Shown here one piece after another: positions 26,160-45,510 of a DNA stretch of 64,000 nucleotides (positions are counted from its first letter, which is position 1; each line of letters opens with the position of its first letter). The translations under genes and the position numbers were made by a program. Origin of the DNA: Acytostelium subglobosum LB1 (lineage: Eukaryota > Evosea > Eumycetozoa > Acytosteliales > Acytosteliaceae); contig NW_012236524.1 in NCBI RefSeq assembly GCF_000787575.1, forward strand, positions 615,665 to 679,664. Reading direction: 5' to 3'. The notes under the pieces are model-generated. The model worked only from the letters and a program-made list of their open reading frames with translations. It was not told the origin of the DNA and ran no database searches.

Positions 26160-29100
26160 ATGTCAGAAGTATTCAGTTATAAACAGTCTTTGGAGTATTT
26201 TGAGAACTTGTTAACTAGTTTAACTACTGATGATAATAATAATATCCTGTTAACGAGTGAACAACATCAACATTCACTTGGTTTATCAATCATATGCCTG
26301 TCAGAAGAAGGCCTTAATTCCTTCAATTATGCTCAAACCATAAACTCATTGCCCTTATTGACCAAAGTATGTACATTGACAATTCATTCATTCATCACTC
26401 AACTCAAACTCAAACTTATACACAATTATTAGTTATGTTCAAATGAGAATGTTATTAGGGCACTACCTGTGAACCATAAAGATATGTTGTACAGGTTGTT
26501 GAAGGAGGCAAGTCCACAACTATCATATGGAGTATGGAAGCTCAATGAATCACGCGGGATCAAGATTGGAGTCTATGATGTAGCAATTGCTCATCTTTGT
26601 TCGATCAATACATCGATGAACATGAATCATCTATCATATTTCATTCTGGATCGATCATTCCTCGTGAGTTTGGTTGCCACTCTCGTCAATCAACCCGATC
26701 TACAACACAACCTATTGTTACAATATCTCAAACTACTTCGAGGTCCTATACATGAGTTTGATCCAAACACTTATGGTATGATCATCGAAGCATTTGGATC
26801 TGAACATGTTGAGCGTGAACTTGATCAATGGTTCATGGCGCCATACTCGCAAGATCCCACACTCATCCATTCCGAGCTCGAACAAAGGCTCAACTACCTC
26901 CTCTCAATGCCAAACAAGTCCACATCGACCCTCCTACTCAATCACAAAAAATACCTTTTAAAGTATGTCATTCATCATTCTAATAATATCAATCATTATT
27001 ATTATTTACTAATTCATTTATTCTTTCAAATTAGGTTCATCTGTACTTCTTTGAAACAGTGTAGCTTGACCAAGTTGAAGATGTTCAATAACAACATGTC
27101 CAAAGTACTGACAGTTGTGTTGATGGATGATGAGGATCATGTTGTCAAAAGTCAATCATTGATTGATCTCCTGAAGGATGGACAAAGTAGATATGGAGTA
27201 GATGCATACAATGTCTACTTTAGAGAGCTTCATACACACATCAGACCAATTGACTCTTTACTTCCATTATATGAACTACTAAATGCCAACAACAAATCCT
27301 CAGTTATCACACTCTTTGGATCATCATTCCAACAAGTAAGTCTTTCATTCATTTATTCACTCAATCACTTCCACTCATTAATGTACTCACTAACTCAATC
27401 AATCAGCATTACAATAGATATGAATCATCAATCATTAGTTTGTTGAAGGATACCAAGAGCCTTGTGCTCCTCAATGGAATATTCAAATGCTTTGGTACTC
27501 GTAATGCAAATGATCACATGGACATTTTCAAACCAATCTTGGATCGCTTAAAGATGATTGATTCATCAATCAATATCAACAACATTGATCACTCAATTCA
27601 ATGTGATGGTTTTGGATGGGGATTGCTCAGCCTCATTGACCTGCTCGAGACTAATGACGTCCTCCTTTGCAAGAGTGACTATCCAATCGACAAATACATG
27701 GACATTGCCATTGCTGCTCTATTGGTGGCGTCAGAGCCCTTTGCCACACAGAGTGATGAGGACCAGTTCATTGAGCAACATCGACCATCATTGGAGAGAT
27801 ACATCAGGCTCTATAGTAATCAGATAGTCAACAACTTCACACCAATCTCATTCCTCAATGCACTTGCTCGTCATTCAATGTTGGATGGTGAACTCATCAC
27901 TAATCTCATTCGTAATGGTGGAGGTCGCAACCGTACTCTTCAACAACCTCGACATCTCGGTATCTTCCTCAACTCATGTCGTCCGGACCCTGTGGGGGCA
28001 TGGATCAAGTACATTGATAGGGAGATCTCCTCCACCTATTCTGGAGATTTAGAGATACATACTATTCCCATACTACTCTACAATGAGATTGTCAACGATT
28101 GTCCGCATGTTGGGTCGCGGTTCCACATTCTCAAGTATCTTCAGAGCATCAAACTGTTCACACCAAAGTATATACCAACATACATCTACAAGACTACATT
28201 GCTGGGTAACAACCAACATGATGGCAATGATGACTTCAACCATCATCTTCAACTTTACAAACAATTCAAGATGAAATCATTGGCATCTATTTATAAATAT
28301 TCAAAGAGATCAAGAATGATTGATCATGATGACCAAGGACATAGACATGGAGATGGATGGATCAACCTTCCAGAGTTGTTGCTCAAACAAATATTTGGAT
28401 ATCTCACACTGGAGCAACCGTTGGAGTCCAAATGGTTGGTGGAGTTGTCGACAGTGTCCAAGCAATTCCATCGAGAAGTGTCAATCTCATTGTGCAACAC
28501 AATCAATCCAACAATATCAATCAGGTCCAAGATTAGTCATTTGGGTACCAAGTACTGTCTCTTCCTCACACCTCCACTGCATCTCAAAGTTTTTGACCTT
28601 GTTCACATACCATCAGAGCACATAGAACTCTGTCTCAATCGTTTGGTATCATTACAAGTCGAATATTATTTTGATGAATCAATCTTATTCACCAAGGTTG
28701 AAGCCCCCAATCTCAGACATATCCACTTCAAAGAGTCTGGTAGCGATCCTAGAGACTCCTTCGATAAAGTGTCAGCCATCGTGGGACATCATAAAATATA
28801 CATTGTGGAAGAGAAGTTCGATCATGATAAAGATGATAATGAAGTTGAAGGTGAAGTTGAGGAAGAAGATGAGAGAGATTATGGATATAGCAATTTCTAT
28901 GAACAGAGTCGAGGATATACAGCAATATATCGACAAGCATTCAAACATTTTCTCCAACATTACATCACCAACAACAATAACAATAACAATAATAATTCAA
29001 CAACATCAGTACAATCAATTGACATTGAGTCAACATCACCTTTTGGCCCATCACCAAACTTGATCCAAGAATATCCATCAACTAGAATCAAGTTCAAATG

Positions 29101-29686
29101 GAATCCAGAGTTGGCAGAAACAAGATTTCTCGACTATTGGAACCTCTCAGATGGCTATCCAACTCATATACTAGAGAGTATGAAGTCAGACCAACTACAA
29201 CATCTCACATCAATTATTAATCCAGAATGGCAATCAATCACATATTTATCAGTGGCCAATCAGGTGCGAGAGTTGACATTGGAACCATCGTGTTCCGGAC
29301 GTGATGAGAGGAATCTTCCTCAACATCTTGCTCCCTTGAAAATGTACTATGAGAGTGCTGCGTTCCAAAACGTGTGCTCACTCAAATTGTTATTTGCAAA
29401 CATCAATCATGTTGTTGTGATGATGCCAACGGTATCAAATAACATTGGATCAATAGTGATGCAGATCACTAATTTGAGATCAATGGTATTGTCTGATATA
29501 TCTCGATCATCAGAAGTGGATCAGATCATTATGGCATTATTGGATCACCTTAATCAATCCATATTCCGCAAACTCACCAAAGTAACATTGACAATCAGTT
29601 TCCGAGGTAAACGAGATCCATTCATCTTTAGACAATTTCTTCGATGTTGTCCCCAATGTCCACTTCAGCTAGTACATCATCAATAA
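26160..29686 (+). CDS. F-box-like protein of a dictyostelid family, tandem copy 1
   Basis: Four exons: 26160-26366, 26433-26962, 27035-27335, 27407-29686; 1105 aa. The N-terminus (VFSYKQSLEYFE) is shared with the next gene. The N-terminal two thirds are helical (LQHNLLLQYLKLLRG, FATQSDEDQFIEQHRPSLERY). An F-box-like segment (WINLPELLLKQIFGYLTLEQ, about residues 665-715, with WLVELSTVSKQFHREV) is followed by leucine-rich strands and an Asn run. F-box proteins select substrates for SCF ubiquitin ligases; the targets cannot be inferred. Introns at matching places occur in the duplicate. Nothing in the frame is broken, so this copy appears functional. Confidence 0.85.
28289..28546 (+). repeat. 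258-bp tract identical to 31212-31469
   Basis: By eye, every base matches the tandem copy; the nearest differences are at 28288 (T, against C at 31211) and 28547 (A, against T at 31470). It covers the F-box-like coding segment. Confidence 0.9.
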
Positions 29687-29864: not shown

Positions 29865-31878
29865 ATGTCTAAACCTAAAGTATTCAGTTATAAGCAGTCT
29901 CTAGAGTATATTGAGATGTTATCTAGTTTAGATGACAATGCTCAGTTAACAACAGAACAAAAGAGTTCACTTGAATCATCAATCAAATGCCTATATAGTG
30001 AACGCCATAATTCAATCAATTATTATCAAACCACCAACTCATTGCCAATATTGACCAAAGTATGTGTAGACCCTACCATTCATTCATTCATTCATTTATA
30101 CATTCACCAACTCAACTCAAACCCAAACACAAACTCAAACTCACACATACACAATCATTCAACCATTCAATCATTCATTCATTCACTAACTCAACTCAAC
30201 TCAATTCATCTCTATCTATCATTAGTTATGTTCACATGAGAATATGATTAGGACAATCAATGTAGAACAAAAAAATGAGTTAAACTTGATGTTGACGCGG
30301 ATAAAACCATACATATCAAATGGAGAAATGACGATCAGTGTATCAAGTGAGATCAAGATTGGAGTATATGAAGTGGTACTTGCTCATCTCAGTTCAGTAG
30401 TGATGGGTGGATGTTCAGAATTCCTTCAGAATCGATCATTCTCAAGCATTTGATTGACAGCCTTGCCAACAAACCTGATCTACTACACAACCTGTTGTTG
30501 CAATATCTCAAACTACTTAGACCGAGCTTTTACCAGACTACATATGAGTTGATCATTAACGTGTTTGGTTCTGATCGTATTGGACGTGCGCTTGAACAAT
30601 GGTTCAGAACGCCAAACATGGAGATTGCCATTGCTACATTATCGGTGGCATCAGAGCCATTTGCCACACAGAGTGATGAGGACCAGTTCATTGAGCAACA
30701 CCGACCATCATTGGAGAGATATATCAGACACTATGATAATCAGATAGTCAACAGCGCCACACGAATTTCATTCCTCAAAGCACTTGCTCGTCATTCAATG
30801 CTGGATGGTCAACTCATCACCAGAATCATTCAAAAATATAGTCAATGCAGCTATAGTGAACAACAAGTTTCACTCAGTCACTTCCTCAACACGTGTCGTC
30901 CAGACCCTGGGGCAGCATGGATCAAGTATATTGATACCACTATCTCGTCCGCAAGTACTGGAGAGGGGGAGATCTATTCCATTCCCGAAGCACTCTACAA
31001 TGTGATTGTCAACGATTGTCCACATGTGGCTGCACGCTTCCACATTCTCAAGTATCTTCAGAGCATCAAACTGTTTACGCTAAAGCAGACACCAACATAC
31101 ATATCCAAGAGTATACTGTTGGGTAACTACCAACATGATGCTGATGGCAATGATGACTTCAATCATCATCTTCAACTTTACAAACAATTCAAGATGAACT
31201 CATTGGCATCCATTTATAAATATTCAAAGAGATCAAGAATGATTGATCATGATGACCAAGGACATAGACATGGAGATGGATGGATCAACCTTCCAGAGTT
31301 GTTGCTCAAACAAATATTTGGATATCTCACACTGGAGCAACCGTTGGAGTCCAAATGGTTGGTGGAGTTGTCGACAGTGTCCAAGCAATTCCATCGAGAA
31401 GTGTCAATCTCATTGTGCAACACAATCAATCCAACAATATCAATCAGGTCCAAGATTAGTCATTTGGGTTCCAAGTACTGTCTCTTTGTCACACCTCCAC
31501 TGCATCTCAAAGCTTTGGACCTTGTTCACATACCATCAGAGCACATCGAACTCTGTCTCAATCACTTGGAATCATTACACGTCGAATTTTATATTGATAA
31601 TGATTCAATCATATTCAGTGGTATCAAACAACATTGTATCAAACGAGATACAGATCAAAGAGTTGAGATCAATGGTATTGGCGGATATATCTGGAGAATC
31701 CAATAACTGTCTGGCATTATTGAAACACCTAAATCAATCCATATTCCCCAAACTCACCAAAGTATCAATCACAATGCATAATGAATTCCAAGATGAATCT
31801 AAACACGAAAGATTCATCTTCAAACAATTCCTTCGATGTTGCCTTCAATGTCCACTTCAACTTGTTAATTATCAATAA
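29865..31878 (+). pseudogene. Broken tandem copy 2 of the F-box-like gene
   Basis: The first exon (29865-30059) and second (from 30226) align with copy 1, including VFSYKQSLEY and splice sites. Then three lesions follow. Near 30442 the frame runs into TGA (NRSFSSI*), while the expected continuation KHLIDSLANKPDLLHNLLLQYLKLL is open in another frame, a one-base loss. At about 30620 the sequence jumps from QWFRTPNMEI to the IAIATLSVASEP part, missing roughly 290 codons present in copy 1. Near 31620 about 250 codons are lost out of frame: the reading frame ends in a random tail at 31706, whereas the true C-terminus (VSNNIVSNEIQIKELRSMVLADIS...) lies in another frame ending at 31878. A shortened expressed fragment is possible. 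Confidence 0.85.
31212..31469 (+). repeat. 258-bp tract identical to 28289-28546
   Basis: Partner of the tract in copy 1. Flanking parts of the two genes are visibly more diverged, with scattered substitutions and large deletions. Confidence 0.9.
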
Positions 31879-37782: not shown

Positions 37783-40700
37783 CTATTCCATCGATGTTCC
37801 AGCCATCACCATCTGATCCTCATGGATTATGGGCACCTTTATCAACATATCCTCCTCTGCCTCTTCCATATGGTCTTGAGTCTCTGATGAACTCTCTTCT
37901 TTAGCTTCCAGTTCATCAAGTTCTTTCTCCCTCTCTGCATCATCAACATGATGATCAAGGACAACATTCTCTGTCTTTCTCTTGATTGTATCAGCAGTGA
38001 CTCTTCTCCATACTCCAACACAATGGACTTGAGCTCTAACTTGTTTGATGGCCTTGATCCATCTACCTTTTGCTGTTCCAGGTTGTACCATTGCCGGACC
38101 AACATCATCCACATCGCTATTCGAATCAATATCTATCTTGTTCTGACTGACATCATCACTAACTTCACCTAGTATGTCGTACTCCTTCCTAGTAGTGGCC
38201 GCCACGACACTCTTGATAAAACTCTTAATAATCACCATGAATTGACCACTGTCATACTCATCGGCGTACTTGAGAAGTTGACCAACAGGTAGACTTATTG
38301 CTCCAAGTCCTACGGATGCGAACCATTGACGAATGGATAGAGGTACTGATCCAAATACCAGTCCTCCAATCTGTGCTGCTACAATTTGAATAAATATGGT
38401 CATTGCCATGACCATCATGAACTGCCAATGATTCAATATATCTCCAAACACATTCTTGGTTGCTGATCATTGATAGTATAATTAGTGAGTAGATTCATAC
38501 CAATTGATCATTCCAATCTAACTAATAACTTACAACTCTGTATCCTTCTGCTGTTGAACTGATTGAATAGTTGTAGGAATACAAATGTGTTGAATATAAT
38601 GTCCTGTCCTCCGGTGAAGAGTAAGATGATCAAGATGATAGTCTAAAAAGGGTGTTAGGAATGATGTTCCAGGACTCCTCAAATCCAAACTTTACTTACC
38701 TGGACCATTGATTGCCCAATGATGTTGAACCACATTCCTTTGTTGATTAACTTGATAGATTTACCTTGGCTAATGGAGAAAGTTGGTTAGTACTTAATCA
38801 TCCATTCTACTCATCTCAATACAACGATCTTACGTTGCACTATTTAACAACTCATTTCTTGGACTCTCGGTGGCAAGTGAGAATGATCCAATGGTCTCCA
38901 TGATGAGATTGATCCATAGCAATTGAACAAGTGTCAATGGACTCGAGGATGAAGTAATGACTCCTATAATTGTAATAATCACAGCTGCACCATAGACAGT
39001 TAACTGGAATTGTAACATTTTCTGGATTGAGTCCATGATGTTCCTTCCCCATACTATTGAGTTGACAATTGAGCTAAAGCTATCATCAATCAGTATAATG
39101 TCTAAATCAAAGAAGTTATTGTTAATCAATCAATTTTGAAGATGGTACACATGTGAAAACATACCTGATTCCTCTCGAGCTATATCAGTTCCATTCTTTC
39201 CTTTGCTATATGATACATCTGATTGATCAAATGATGGAACATCATGGGTGTTGTCTCCGGTCACTCCCACAACTTCTCCATGTGCTTGCAGCATTGTTAT
39301 AAGATCAAGCTTGTCCTGTGATGATGCCTTGGCCAACACCTTGATCTTTGGTAGCATTTGCTCAACCTCCAACTTTGACTTTGTGTTGAGCTCGCTGGCC
39401 TCCATACATATATCATCATTTGAAAGAAGTCCACATACTTCGGCAATTGCCTTGGCATGATCAATATCTTATATTGATTATATTTGTTAGTAGTGATTGG
39501 AATGATTCCAAATTGATTGATATAGTGCGATGGACTTACTCTCATGAGTGATCAATCTTGTGATGATACCAGCATCTTGACAACGCTTGATGGTGCTTGG
39601 GATTTGTCGCCTCAGTGGGTCTTTGATGCCAAATACACAAATGAGCACTAGTTGATCAGGTTGATATGTAGTCCAATCTCTTTCATCGACTATATCCATG
39701 TAGGCCACTGAGATTGTCCTTAAACATTGCGATGACATTAGCTTCACACGATCCATCATCTTTGTTCTCTTCTCTTGACTTATATCCACTACCACCTTCA
39801 TATTTCCAATCATGTGAGTGGACTTGGCGATCAAATCCTCTGATGATCCGCGAATAACATATCGATATCCATCTGCCAGCTTGTACACTGCCCACTGATC
39901 ACCTCTTGCAGTGCTTGGACATCTTGCTCTTGTTCCAACAATGTCCAAGCCCATCTTAGATGCGAAGGACAGCAGGGCACACTCCACCTGATTTCCAATC
40001 AACCAGGATTCTTCCAAATACGGGTCGTACTGCTCAAATGCCAAAGAGTTGACGGCTATTGCTTCAAAGAGTAGATCATGTTGAGCACTTGATAGTTGTT
40101 GAGTGATTGATGCATGGTCAAGTGGCCCCAGTTCTTCGTTCACTTTGACTCCCATCACAGAGGCGGTCACCACATTTATCTTATCGTCCACGGTCATCAG
40201 TCCAGAGATGTCGGTGCATATCGTTGTGACAGTGCCCATCTGTTCGAATGCATGTAGGTTGCGCACCATTATGTTGTCCTTGATAATCCTGCCCGTGTTG
40301 TAGGCCAATGCAAAGCTGATGCACTGTGGCAATCCATCGGGAACGATTACACATATGATGGTGGCGGCCAGGATAAAGTAGTTGACTACAGCCACAATGA
40401 AGTTGGTACCGCCATAGTTACCATCGTGTGCCACACTCACTATAATGTGTTTGATCACTATTATAAAGAATGTGCACATGGCCACTACAACACTAACCTT
40501 TGCAATATTGTTGGCCAAGTTTGTTAACTTGTTGTACATGCTTGATTGTGTGGTGTAGTTGGGGACCTGGACTTGTTCGGCGGCATCTTGGAGGGGTGAT
40601 GGTGATGGACTGGATGTCCATGAATGGCGATAGTCACCAATGCATACGACCAGTAGGCTGCCATATCCCTGGACTACCTTGGTACCAGAGTAGAGCCTGC

Positions 40701-41618
40701 TTCCATCCCGGGGCTGAACACAATCTGATGAGTATCCATCACCAACTTGGCAGGCAAGGTTGAAGCTGTCGAGCAGTATACCATCGACGGGTAGGATGCA
40801 GCCAGGCTCGATCATGATCACCTCGCCAACATTTAGCTCCCTGGTGTTGACCTGCTTCTGGACACCAGCACGCATCACTCGCACCATGCTTATGTCGGCA
40901 TTGTTGATGGAGCTCAAGCGTTTAAGTTGCACCTCCATGTAATACTTGTTCAAGCTGTTGACTATGATGACGAGGCACACTGCTCCGATGACCTTGAGAC
41001 TATGCGCCCATTGAGTACTTCCATCAACAATCAACACAACTATCTCGAGGAATAGCAATAGGATGAGCGAGTGATGTCTGAAACCTTCGGTGATGGACCA
41101 GAGTACGGCAAGGGCTTTAGTGTACCATGTACCATCAGTGTCTGATGACATGCCTGGAGCACGGATATTGCTTCCAAACACCTGTTTACGCTGTTTAAAG
41201 TTGTCGTAGGTCTCGTCTAGCGGCAATCCAGCCTTGATATCAGTCTGGAACATCTTTTCCAGATGTCTCCTCCAAGGTACCTTCTCATTCTTCATCATAT
41301 CATCAATCAATGAACTATCATCCTTGTCCATTAACTTGGCACAATATATTCTATCAGTGTCGAATCTGGAATTATTGATTGGTTAGAATATGGAATTGTT
41401 GGTTGATTGATCATTGCAATCACATACATTGAGTGAGACATGTGCTCTAGTTCTACATCGTGGAACTCTATTATTGTGGATTTATGGTTGTTCTCGAATA
41501 GCTTGACTTCGACTTCAACATCTTTGTCATGTTGATCATCAATACTATGTTGTTTTGATGATGACGCTGCATCCACATGTTCATATCTTAGGAATGGCAA
41601 CTTATCTTTGTAATCCAT
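37783..41618 (-). CDS. PMCA-like P-type ATPase with altered catalytic motifs
   Basis: Seven exons: 41618-41428, 41365-39540, 39467-39165, 39101-38834, 38769-38700, 38642-38534, 38462-37783; 1148 aa. The fold and order are those of plasma-membrane Ca2+-ATPases: SGTKVV, PDGLP (TM4, usually PEGLP), GIKDPLRRQIP, TDIAREESDIILIDDSFSSI, MLQFQLT, LLWINLIMETIGSFSLATESP, IIFNTFVFLQLFN. Key motifs are changed: DKTGTLT reads DISGLMT (about residue 449, Asp kept, Lys lost); the actuator TGES reads VGDG (about 271); TGDN reads THEN; GDGxNDAPA reads GDNTHDVPS. The C-terminal basic stretch (KGRWIKAIKQVRAQ) could bind calmodulin. Pump activity is doubtful. No stop or frameshift is present. Confidence 0.9.
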
Positions 41619-42129: not shown

Positions 42130-43145
42130 TTATATGTTGTGTGATTTGAAGAGTACATCAGTACTTCCAATGAAATGACGCGATTGAACAAGTCGAATCT
42201 CGTAGTACTCGCCTTGTTTGGATGTTGGTATCTGTTGCTTGGTCTCATGTGTCTTTTTGATGATGTTGTAGAGGGTGCTGACAGAACGTTCACATGCCAA
42301 TGCAAGGTTATTAGGCTCGCGTGTGCTCCATCCAAGCAGCAGTGCACTGAATATATCGCCAGTGCCAGTGAAGTATCCGTCGATCCTTGGTACGGAAAGG
42401 CGGAATTTACGCTGTCCCTTGGCTCCGCCAATGACCACAATCTCATCGTTGCAGTCATCCACCATACAGCTTGTTATTATCACATTGGCAATGCCCTTCT
42501 CATGTAATTTATCAATCGCCATTATAGCGTCCGCTTCTGTATTTATCTTGATTCCTGTTAAGAGTCTATATTGATCAAAGGATATTAGCCGACACCGATA
42601 TGAATCTATGAATGAATGATTGACTTACTCTGCCTCTGTTTGATTTGGAAACAGGTAGTCTGCATGCTGGATGACTTCGTCGCGATATATGTCGACCAAA
42701 TCCTCAGGAACATACAGCTTATTGTTGTCCCCAAGTACAGGATCACAAACTATGTAGGTTGTATGATGTTAGACGGAGAGTCAGACACAAGAGCGAGCGT
42801 GTACATACCATATGTGAGGTTAGGATTGGCCTGCTTAAGTGTACGAACTATTGATAGTACAGCTCTTAGTGTCTCGGCGTTATTGTTGTAGCCTGTTAGC
42901 ACGTGTGTATAGTTGTCTGAGAGATGGTTGGTGGTCAGCGTCTGGAAGATCTCCAGAAGCTTGGCGGCAGACAATGATTCTCCCTTGAATGCCGAGTACG
43001 CAGTATTATTTGATAACTGTACAGTGTTTATGGGATCTACCTCTATACCCATCTGTTGTAACGCCAACACTGCACACTTATTTCCAACATATCCATGGCA
43101 TACCCATGATTGAATGGACAACACATTATAATCTTCTCCTCCCAT
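42130..43145 (-). CDS. pdxK: Pyridoxal kinase
   Basis: Three exons: 43145-42809, 42749-42629, 42565-42130; 297 aa, normal for the family. It phosphorylates pyridoxal, pyridoxine and pyridoxamine to the PLP precursors. Visible signatures: [19 protein letters not shown] at the N-terminus, [13 protein letters not shown] (spliced from exons 1 and 2), PNQTEAELLTG (exons 2 and 3), and the anion-hole/catalytic motif [18 protein letters not shown]. All are intact. SPT, further along the window, is a PLP-type enzyme complex, but there is no sign of co-regulation. Confidence 0.95.
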
Positions 43146-43462: not shown

Positions 43463-45510
43463 TTAGACAATTGTAGAAGAAAGGAATTCTTGGAAGCGCT
43501 GTGAATAGTCGGATGGTGAAACGGACGATATCTCCTCGTTCGCTCCATACTTGATCGTCTTGTAAGAGTGCTCAATCTTCTTTCTCAAACTATACAACAT
43601 TAATATATCTATAATGCCCATGAAGTAATGCTCCTCGTTATGATGACCATCCTCTCCAACTCCCTTAATGCCTCCCTCATCCTGTTGGAATGCACTTGTA
43701 TAATGTCTAGAAGTACAAGGTAAGTTATGTTAGGTAAGGTTGGCGTTTGAACGGATAACTAACGAATGAATGATGAGGTACACATACTCTGTCAGATCAC
43801 CCAATGATATATTGAGGTCCTTAAGGTCTAATGGTGGATTGTCTTCGAAGCTGTCGCCGAGGGTACTGCGTAGGATGGAGGGCGAGGGTGGGTCGCGATT
43901 GGCATAGTGGATGCCAATGAGTAGGGAGTAGTCCATGATGTTGAGTGACTCTAGTAGTTGGCAATCCTTCTTGATCTGATCGAGAAAGGCCGTTCTCCTC
44001 TGTGCTCCGATACAGATCTTCTTCTTGCGGTTCCTAAAGTCAATGTCCTTCAACGTCACTGTGTCGGACTTCTTGTCATTGTCCGATGCCTCGCGGCCCA
44101 CAATGGAGCCCTTGAGATCGTAGCGCTCGTGGATCTTCTTGCGTGTGGGGAAGTTGTTGCCCATCACCACGAAGCGCACCTGGCGGCCGCCGTGCGGCTT
44201 GACCCTGAACAGGCCAAAGAAGCGCGGCAGCAATGTGTTTGGATTGGTGATTAAGTGATCGGTGTACGATGGCAGCAGTTGCCTCAGCAGTTTGGCCTCG
44301 TCCTTTGGTATAGTCTTAATGATGAACTTCATGTCATGTGAGAAGAAGAACAATGATCCACTCTTGCCTGGCGTTGGCAACTCGCGCAGCGCGTTCTCTC
44401 CGTTCTTCAAAGTGTTGCACAGGGACACCAAGAAGTCGGCCTGATCGATTCCAAACTGATAGCGCAGGAAACGGAAAGCTGTAGAGCAGTAGTCCTTAAA
44501 CTTGAAGGGTCCTGTCGAATGCGCCTCTGTCAGCTGAGAGCCTGCCGAGTCAAAGCGGAGCTCCTTTGGTGAGTGGAAGAATTCTGTCTTGTTCTTGAAG
44601 TCCTTGGGAGTGCGTAGAGTGTGGAACTGATGTGGCATATTCGAGTTGGAGCCGCTCGTACTCATACTCTTTCCAACAGCATTCCTAATGCCAGTCTGTA
44701 TGTTTAGCATCAATGCCCATGAAGGGTGGCCCTTATATATAATCTCTCCAAGCAAGTTCTTCTTATGCTCATGTGTTCTAGCCTTGCGATGTGACAGTCG
44801 TCTGTCAGCTATATGTATATAACATGTGTCAGTTAATCAATCACACGACCAATCAATCAACCACTCTATCACTTACATCGTCTCATTCTAATTCTTTGGC
44901 TTTGACTTAGTCTGGACTTGGGCGTTGGCGAGTCGGTGAAGCTACCGCTCGGACTGCTCTCAAGTTCGATGCTGGTCTTCATGGTTGGTGTGACTGTTAG
45001 CGGCGTCATTTGGAAGCCGCCAACGCCCATGTGACCATTGGATGTGGATGCGCCAGTAACAGAGAAAGGCGAGGGCATCTGTGTCTCGCCGCCACTGCTT
45101 GGCGAATCGAACATTGTGACTCGCGAAGACGAGCTATGCTTGAATATGACCTGCTCGCAGTTGATCTCGCTCCTGACACTGGACACGCCCAGTTCCTCTG
45201 GCGCATCCGAGTCGGAGGACACGCTGTCACGTGTGAGTGGGTCGGCCTTCTCGCGCTCGACCACATCGCCCACACTTCCGCCACCCTGTCTCTTGGCTAT
45301 GTATGACAGGTCGTCCAGTGAAGTATATTGATCGCGAGATGGCTTGTCGGCGCCATCATTGTTCAATGTATTCTTTGTGGATGTTGTGGATGTGGTGGAT
45401 GTTGATGTAGTTGGTGGTGCCAATGTGGAAGTCGAAGTTGAGGTCGAGGTCGAGGTCGAGGTTGGAGTCGAGGTTGAGGTTGTATTGGCAGAGTTTGGTG
45501 TATCCATCAT
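43463..45510 (-). CDS. Phosphatidylinositol-4-phosphate 5-kinase
   Basis: Three exons: 45510-44877, 44808-43788, 43706-43463; 632 aa. The last exon has no Met and is easily missed; it adds EHYTSAFQQDEGG and the catalytic YFMGIIDILMLYSLRKK with the specificity-loop region ISSVSPSDYSQRFQEFL, ending at TAA. Residues 1-215 are Ser/Thr-rich and probably disordered. The kinase starts near NLLGEIIYKGHPSWALMLNIQTGIR, with the nucleotide loop SGSLFFFSHDMKFIIKTI, RYDLKGS and NIMDYSLLIGIH. It makes PI(4,5)P2 at membranes. Sequence favours a type I-like PIPK; I cannot rule out type II from motifs alone. Confidence 0.93.

Follow-up and report, generated by a model that had tools for sequence, protein, structure and literature searches.

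A complete but divergent plasma-membrane Ca2+-ATPase paralogue in Acytostelium subglobosum, probably retained without a full catalytic cycle

We analysed a window of 64,000 nucleotides from Acytostelium subglobosum LB1 (contig NW_012236524.1, positions 615,665 to 679,664) and found that one of its genes encodes a divergent homologue of the plasma-membrane Ca2+-ATPases (PMCA, P2B type) in which catalytic motifs that are intact in four other PMCA genes of the same genome are changed together. The explanation that we favour, with some reserve, is that this is a paralogue under selection whose product would not run the full phosphorylation-dephosphorylation cycle and would be kept as a folded PMCA-type membrane protein. 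By homology the protein would have ten helices, and it is probably non-pumping and perhaps linked to calmodulin.

The gene lies on the minus strand at 41618..37783, where, as an earlier sequence-only reading of this DNA had claimed, seven exons join in frame into a single open frame of 1148 amino acids with no internal stop (Table 1). All six introns are canonical (GT...AG, 57-72 bp), with a GC content of 0.314 in a window of about 44% GC, and the one that follows exon 6 is in phase 1 and lies no more than one alignment column away from an intron, also in phase 1, of two paralogues, P3 and P4. The GC3 of the gene, at 0.469, is lower than that of the four paralogues (0.549-0.703). With a single assembly to go on and no cDNA seen, an assembly error or a false gene model has to be weighed, but such an artefact is hardly credible given that nine catalytic codons are changed in frame by multi-nucleotide changes, that every intron is canonical and that one of them sits so close to an intron of the same phase in P3 and P4. 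We rejected sequence error and a bad splice model on the strength of these in-frame changes and clean introns.

Table 1. Positions within the window of the divergent PMCA gene and of its main features, listed 5' to 3' along the minus strand.
Feature	Position	Strand	Remark
Whole coding region, 7 exons and 6 introns	37783..41618	-	joined frame; TIGR01517 above cut-off
Exon 1, N-terminal extension	41428..41618	-	mostly aligned to gaps in paralogues
Exon 2: M1-M4, A domain, first part of P domain, N domain	39540..41365	-	assigned by homology
CQVGDGYSSD, residues 269-278	40723..40752	-	A-domain loop shortened, without TGES
PDGLP (PEGLP)	40327..40341	-	M4 Ca2+ ligand Glu to Asp407; ligand role from an excerpt of PMC12488499
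DISGLMT, residues 449-455, for DKTGTLT	40192..40212	-	Asp449 kept; Lys replaced by Ile, one Thr by Ser and one by Leu
RCPSTARGD	39898..39924	-	N-domain stretch without seven residues that paralogues have
IRGSSE	39838..39855	-	Lys of KGA to Arg569
THEN, residues 670-673	39466..39549	-	TGDN in paralogues; across the 39540/39467 splice
Exon 3, P domain	39165..39467	-	
GDNTHDVPS	39232..39258	-	GDGTNDGPA in P1-P3, GDGVNDAPQ in P4; Asp744 and Asp748 kept
Exon 4, end of P domain and M5-M6	38834..39101	-	
QFQLTVY	38992..39012	-	M5 Tyr810, Asn in P1-P4 and PMCA2 (N841)
NLIME (NLIMD)	38896..38910	-	M6 Ca2+ ligand Glu842 in place of Asp; Asn838 retained
Exon 5	38700..38769	-	
Exon 6	38534..38642	-	
Exon 7, M9-M10 and C-terminal tail	37783..38462	-	
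Candidate calmodulin-binding segment GRWIKAIKQVRAQVHCVGVWR, residues 1055-1075	38005..38067	-	statistically modest
Strongly acidic C-terminal stretch, residues 1096-1128	37846..37944	-	
AATAAA	37777..37782	-	immediately 3' of the stop codon

Scored against the PMCA-type model TIGR01517, the protein reaches 596.7 bits over residues 75-987 (cut-off 507.05), and its best match among solved structures is PMCA2 (E=6.4e-122). A search of the 30.7-Mb assembly (56 contigs) returned four further PMCA genes, P1 to P4, on other contigs (C34, C56, C35 and C30; loci L033, L034, L035 and L036, respectively), the main open frames of which score 955-1215 bits against the same model. All four keep DKTGTLT, TGES, TGDN, GDGxND and PEGLP intact and match the divergent protein at 33-37% identity in local alignments, P1 being the nearest (34% over 963 columns when compared at whole length). 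A tree tentatively places the divergent protein inside P1-P4 (90/91) and together with P1-P3 (94/91), neither grouping being starred, on a very long branch of 4.37 compared to 0.11-1.14 for P1-P4, while the branch of Q1, a more distant P2C-like ATPase on contig C49, is even longer. This placement agrees with the phase-1 intron held in common with P3 and P4. Scans of viral and prokaryote contigs, within reach of close relatives only, found no orthologue. Across the genome, E1-E2_ATPase matches occur at 39 places (two of which, on C43, are one gene), and at 37 of these a DKTGT codon string follows downstream within 2.5 kb; it is missing from the divergent gene and from a copy on contig C26 that is truncated and decayed. 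Such strings number 45 genome-wide, against 6 for a reversed control pattern. Two similar P2 ATPases, Q2 (C45) and Q3 (C51), have NGES for TGES and keep DKTGT, GDGVND and PEGLP.

The changes that the sequence-only reading had listed for DKTGTLT, TGDN, GDGxNDAPA and PEGLP are all present (Table 1), DISGLMT and THEN at the positions that it gave, and its claim that near-invariant motifs have changed jointly is borne out, since none of these changes occurs in P1-P4. With the paralogue residue written first, the exchanges are Lys450Ile, Thr451Ser, Thr453Leu, Leu454Met, Lys569Arg, Gly671His, Asp672Glu, Gly745Asn and Asn747His, which together amount to at least 15 nucleotide changes in nine codons. 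The phosphorylated Asp had been described as retained and it is; the Lys and Thr that support it had been described as lost, which is right for the Lys (Ile450) and for the second Thr (Leu453), but Ser451 keeps a hydroxyl and Thr455 is kept. The proposed replacement of TGES by VGDG stands insofar as there is no TGES and the loop is shorter, but the pairing itself depends on the alignment, the paralogue TGES lying opposite a gap in MAFFT while phmmer pairs other residues, and the span cited for VGDG, 40746-40723, covers VGDGYSSD, VGDG alone being at 40746-40735. To this list we add Arg569, Glu842, Tyr810 and the seven missing N-domain residues, which include the Phe equivalent to SERCA F487, which stacks on adenine.

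Residues that are kept comprise Asp449, Gly452, Thr455, Gly570, Asp646, Pro647, Arg649, Thr670, Lys725, Gly743, Asp744, Asp748 and Pro750, and presumably include one anchor per HAD motif. Considered as a P-type ATPase, the protein has the phosphorylatable Asp and departs from the DKTG[TS] signature (DISGLMT), from the TGES or xGE loop (a shorter loop of unsure alignment), and from TGD and GDGxND (THE and GDNTHD, with both Asp of the latter kept). At the Ca2+ site, excerpts of PMC12488499 report that the one Ca2+ bound by PMCA2 is held by three side chains (E412, N869 and D873) together with three backbone groups, and that N841 is a latch residue whose mutation lowers transport. The exchanged acidic ligands of the divergent protein (E to D and D to E) should retain the charge with a different geometry, and Ser846 stands at the position of PMCA2 S877, where P1-P4 have Ala.

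We compared 26 catalytic columns that are invariant in P1-P4 with a background of 315 other invariant columns. The divergent protein keeps 13/26 of the former and 168/315 (53%) of the latter, and a test for preferential loss of catalytic residues found none (p=0.84); a first count with a wider catalytic set had given 21/39 vs 168/318 (p=1.0). Q1, which has intact motifs, keeps 26/26 catalytic vs 133/308 other columns (p=1.3e-9), Q2 keeps 22/26 vs 149/272 and Q3 22/26 vs 146/271 (p=0.003 each). When TGES is excluded because its alignment is unsure, the divergent protein keeps 13/22 catalytic columns as against 22/22 in Q1, 19/22 in Q2 and 19/22 in Q3. A count of 13/26 is close to the background rate, so the catalytic residues no longer enjoy special protection, though they have been lost no faster than others, a pattern that would also result from uniform relaxation. 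Of 107 columns that do not vary among the other seven ATPases of the comparison, 62 are kept and 45 changed. By region, with borders set by us, the invariant columns kept are 15/40 in the A domain, 9/23 in M1-M2, 52/91 in the second part of the P domain, 28/44 in M5-M6 and 26/41 in M7-M10. Pfam Hydrolase (21.1 bits, cut-off 26.4) and Cation_ATPase (21.2 bits, cut-off 21.7) both fall below threshold, and Cation_ATPase_N is absent from the Pfam matches listed for the protein; for each of the four paralogues, the main open frame exceeds the cut-offs of all three.

The proposal of the sequence-only reading that the gene encodes a pseudo-pump holds in part: the protein is a PMCA relative that has lost its special catalytic constraint but preserved its frame, its splice sites and its hydrophobic core, and complete inactivity is less certain because several HAD anchors, including the phosphorylatable Asp, are kept. 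Residual phosphorylation may persist, as Asp449, Thr670, Lys725, Asp744 and Asp748 remain and the Ca2+-site exchanges are conservative, and this counts against our favoured explanation. Because these anchors survive, the main rival is a working but altered P-type ATPase, which would form a slow aspartyl phosphate or move another ion and whose changed motifs would tune its kinetics, for example through a long-lived phosphoenzyme resulting from loss of TGES. Its case is helped further by Asp646 and Arg649, by the hydroxyl at Ser451, by the conservative Lys to Arg569 exchange and by a Ca2+ site in which Asp407 and Glu842 retain both charges and Asn838 is kept. Against it stand the absence of the TGES loop, described as essential in an excerpt of PMC11977196, the replacement of the DKTGT Lys by Ile and of a Thr in that motif by Leu, the seven missing N-domain residues, the shifts from GDGxND to GDNxHD and from TGD to THE jointly with the other losses, and the change of 45 of the 107 columns invariant elsewhere. 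We regard an altered ATPase as possible but unlikely. Less probable still is a new enzymatic or sensing role, in which the presumed HAD anchors would bind phosphate or Mg2+ and the protein would be a non-transporting sensor of Ca2+, phosphate or acyl phosphates; these anchors are indeed kept despite the change of half of the catalytic columns, but Pfam Hydrolase is below cut-off and the retained residues may merely hold the fold.

We next turn to selection and decay, for which the P1 coding sequence was decayed neutrally in simulation until a set number of the 26 catalytic codons had changed. On the assumption that all losses follow the end of selection, and with the unaligned TGES counted as four of them, decay to 13/26 losses produced a mean of 22.2 stops and a minimum of 9, with no stop-free run among 100; stop-free runs were also 0/100 at six losses and 10/200 at three. 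Columns that are all hydrophobic are still so in the divergent protein in 253 of 301 cases (84%), compared to a neutral maximum of 77% in 200 runs, a comparison that also spans the time before any loss. As stops arose in each of the 100 neutral runs, plain decay is unlikely, and so is a plain pseudogene. Judged by these indirect tests, catalytic constraint is lost while frame and fold are maintained, as in a pseudoenzyme, and this combination, together with the preserved splice sites, is better accounted for by a pseudo-pump than by a pseudogene.

The appearance of decay in this genome is illustrated by the copy on contig C26 (C26:240500-247500, at about 1403-1955 of that piece), a truncated, decayed P2C-like ATPase and thus a P-type pseudogene. 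Over the first aligned piece it is 68% identical to an ATPase on contig C21; it has an internal stop as well as a frame change, and beyond M3 the 7 kb searched yielded no match. That the divergent gene is likewise on its way out, with selection weak or only recently lifted and the stops yet to come, would fit the equal loss of catalytic and other invariant columns, the long branch and a GC3 lower than that of the paralogues. We nevertheless think it improbable, given that every neutral run at 13/26 losses had accumulated at least nine stops, that six clean introns and a hydrophobic core above neutral expectation remain, and that the C26 copy already has a stop and a frame change at 68% identity to its relative.

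If the gene is instead a selected pseudo-pump, coupled Ca2+ transport would not be expected, considering that TGES is absent, the Lys of DKTGT gone and N-domain residues missing, and the protein might, more tentatively, act by protein-protein contact. Excerpts of PMC8835232 report that PMCA activity can increase on oligomerisation, so that contact with true pumps, with calmodulin or with both would be the simplest job remaining to it. The most likely forms of such contact would be association with the true PMCAs P1-P3 or competition, through the tail, for calmodulin, lipid or partners, by which the protein could determine how active the pumps are or where they lie, perhaps at the contractile vacuole, the site of PatA in Dictyostelium discoideum. 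A role as regulator or scaffold is what we infer from these features.

Within the tail, residues 1055-1075 align with the segment of PatA that is predicted to bind calmodulin and with the counterparts of this segment in P1, P2 and P4. The pairwise scores were reached by 44, 2248, 740 and 288 of 5000 shuffles for the four templates; a 21-column profile gave 1/5000, with a runner-up of 12.3 vs 12.8 when all six frames of the window were scanned, and a 19-column profile that includes PatA gave 470/20000, yet the segment was the best of 5237 positions in five proteins. Its likeness to a calmodulin-binding segment is only suggestive. According to excerpts of PMC7079120, PatA resides at the contractile vacuole and has a predicted calmodulin-binding segment, an earlier report having described it as without the conserved inhibitory calmodulin-binding domain, and an acidic C-terminal cluster directs a protein of D. 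discoideum to the same organelle. The bolder proposal that a catalytically dead PMCA now serves the true Ca2+ pumps as a dedicated regulatory subunit that responds to calmodulin, brought to the contractile vacuole by its acidic tail, is one that we consider rather unlikely.

P-type ATPases are usually regarded as obligate catalysts. Pseudoenzymes such as pseudokinases and iRhoms are complete paralogues with eroded catalytic motifs that exist alongside active enzymes, and the divergent gene resembles them in being complete, with eroded motifs, beside four motif-intact PMCA genes. If our explanation is true, a complete, selected PMCA without its catalytic signature would be a natural separation-of-function form, and it raises the question of what use a Ca2+-pump body has without pumping. 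It also calls for caution in annotation, as the family score alone (TIGR01517) labels the protein a calcium-translocating ATPase. A literature search for P-type or PMCA pseudo-pumps returned none among the matches listed.

Among known systems, the nearest are dictyostelid PAT1/PatA and its probable counterparts P1-P3, PatA being compared only through the calmodulin-binding peptide in an excerpt of PMC7079120. The divergent protein has the same layout, with a tail after M10, and resembles P1-P3 in the sequence of M5-M6 and M7-M10 (FNTFVFLQLFN, WGRN and QFQLTV blocks), but differs from them (36-37% local identity) in its changed motifs, the absence of TGES, the N-domain gap and the long acidic tail. 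Human PMCA1 and PMCA2 (6a69, 9gsd) are the best structure matches, and in comparison to these the divergent protein retains the Asn of the Ca2+ site and has Ser846 at the place of PMCA2 S877, whereas the Glu and Asp ligands have become Asp and Glu, N841 has become Tyr and the catalytic motifs are changed. In the literature listed, the nearest case is that of apicomplexan guanylate cyclases that contain a P4-ATPase domain (TgATPaseP-GC and PfGC-alpha), where a P-type ATPase body belongs to a protein that acts in signalling, as it may here. Excerpts of PMC6592433 and PMC7858053 report that these cyclases keep DKTGT and that PfGC-alpha parasites with the Asp replaced were not selectable, from which the authors infer an active ATPase; in the divergent PMCA, by contrast, DKTGT itself is changed.

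The surrounding DNA holds further genes. Upstream on the same strand are a pyridoxal-kinase-like gene at 42130-43145 (PF08543, 28 bits vs a cut-off of 27, for the last open frame only) and a PIP5K gene at 43730-44836 (PF01504, 250.5 bits). PtdIns(4,5)P2 is used by PMCAs, but the adjacency of the PIP5K gene is probably due to chance. Elsewhere in the window, two open frames on the plus strand, 27275-29686 and 30372-31706, for which no Pfam match was found at E 0.001, form a tandem duplicate with long near-identical stretches such as SIYKYSKRSRMIDHDDQGHRHGDGWINLPELLLKQIFGYLTLEQ.
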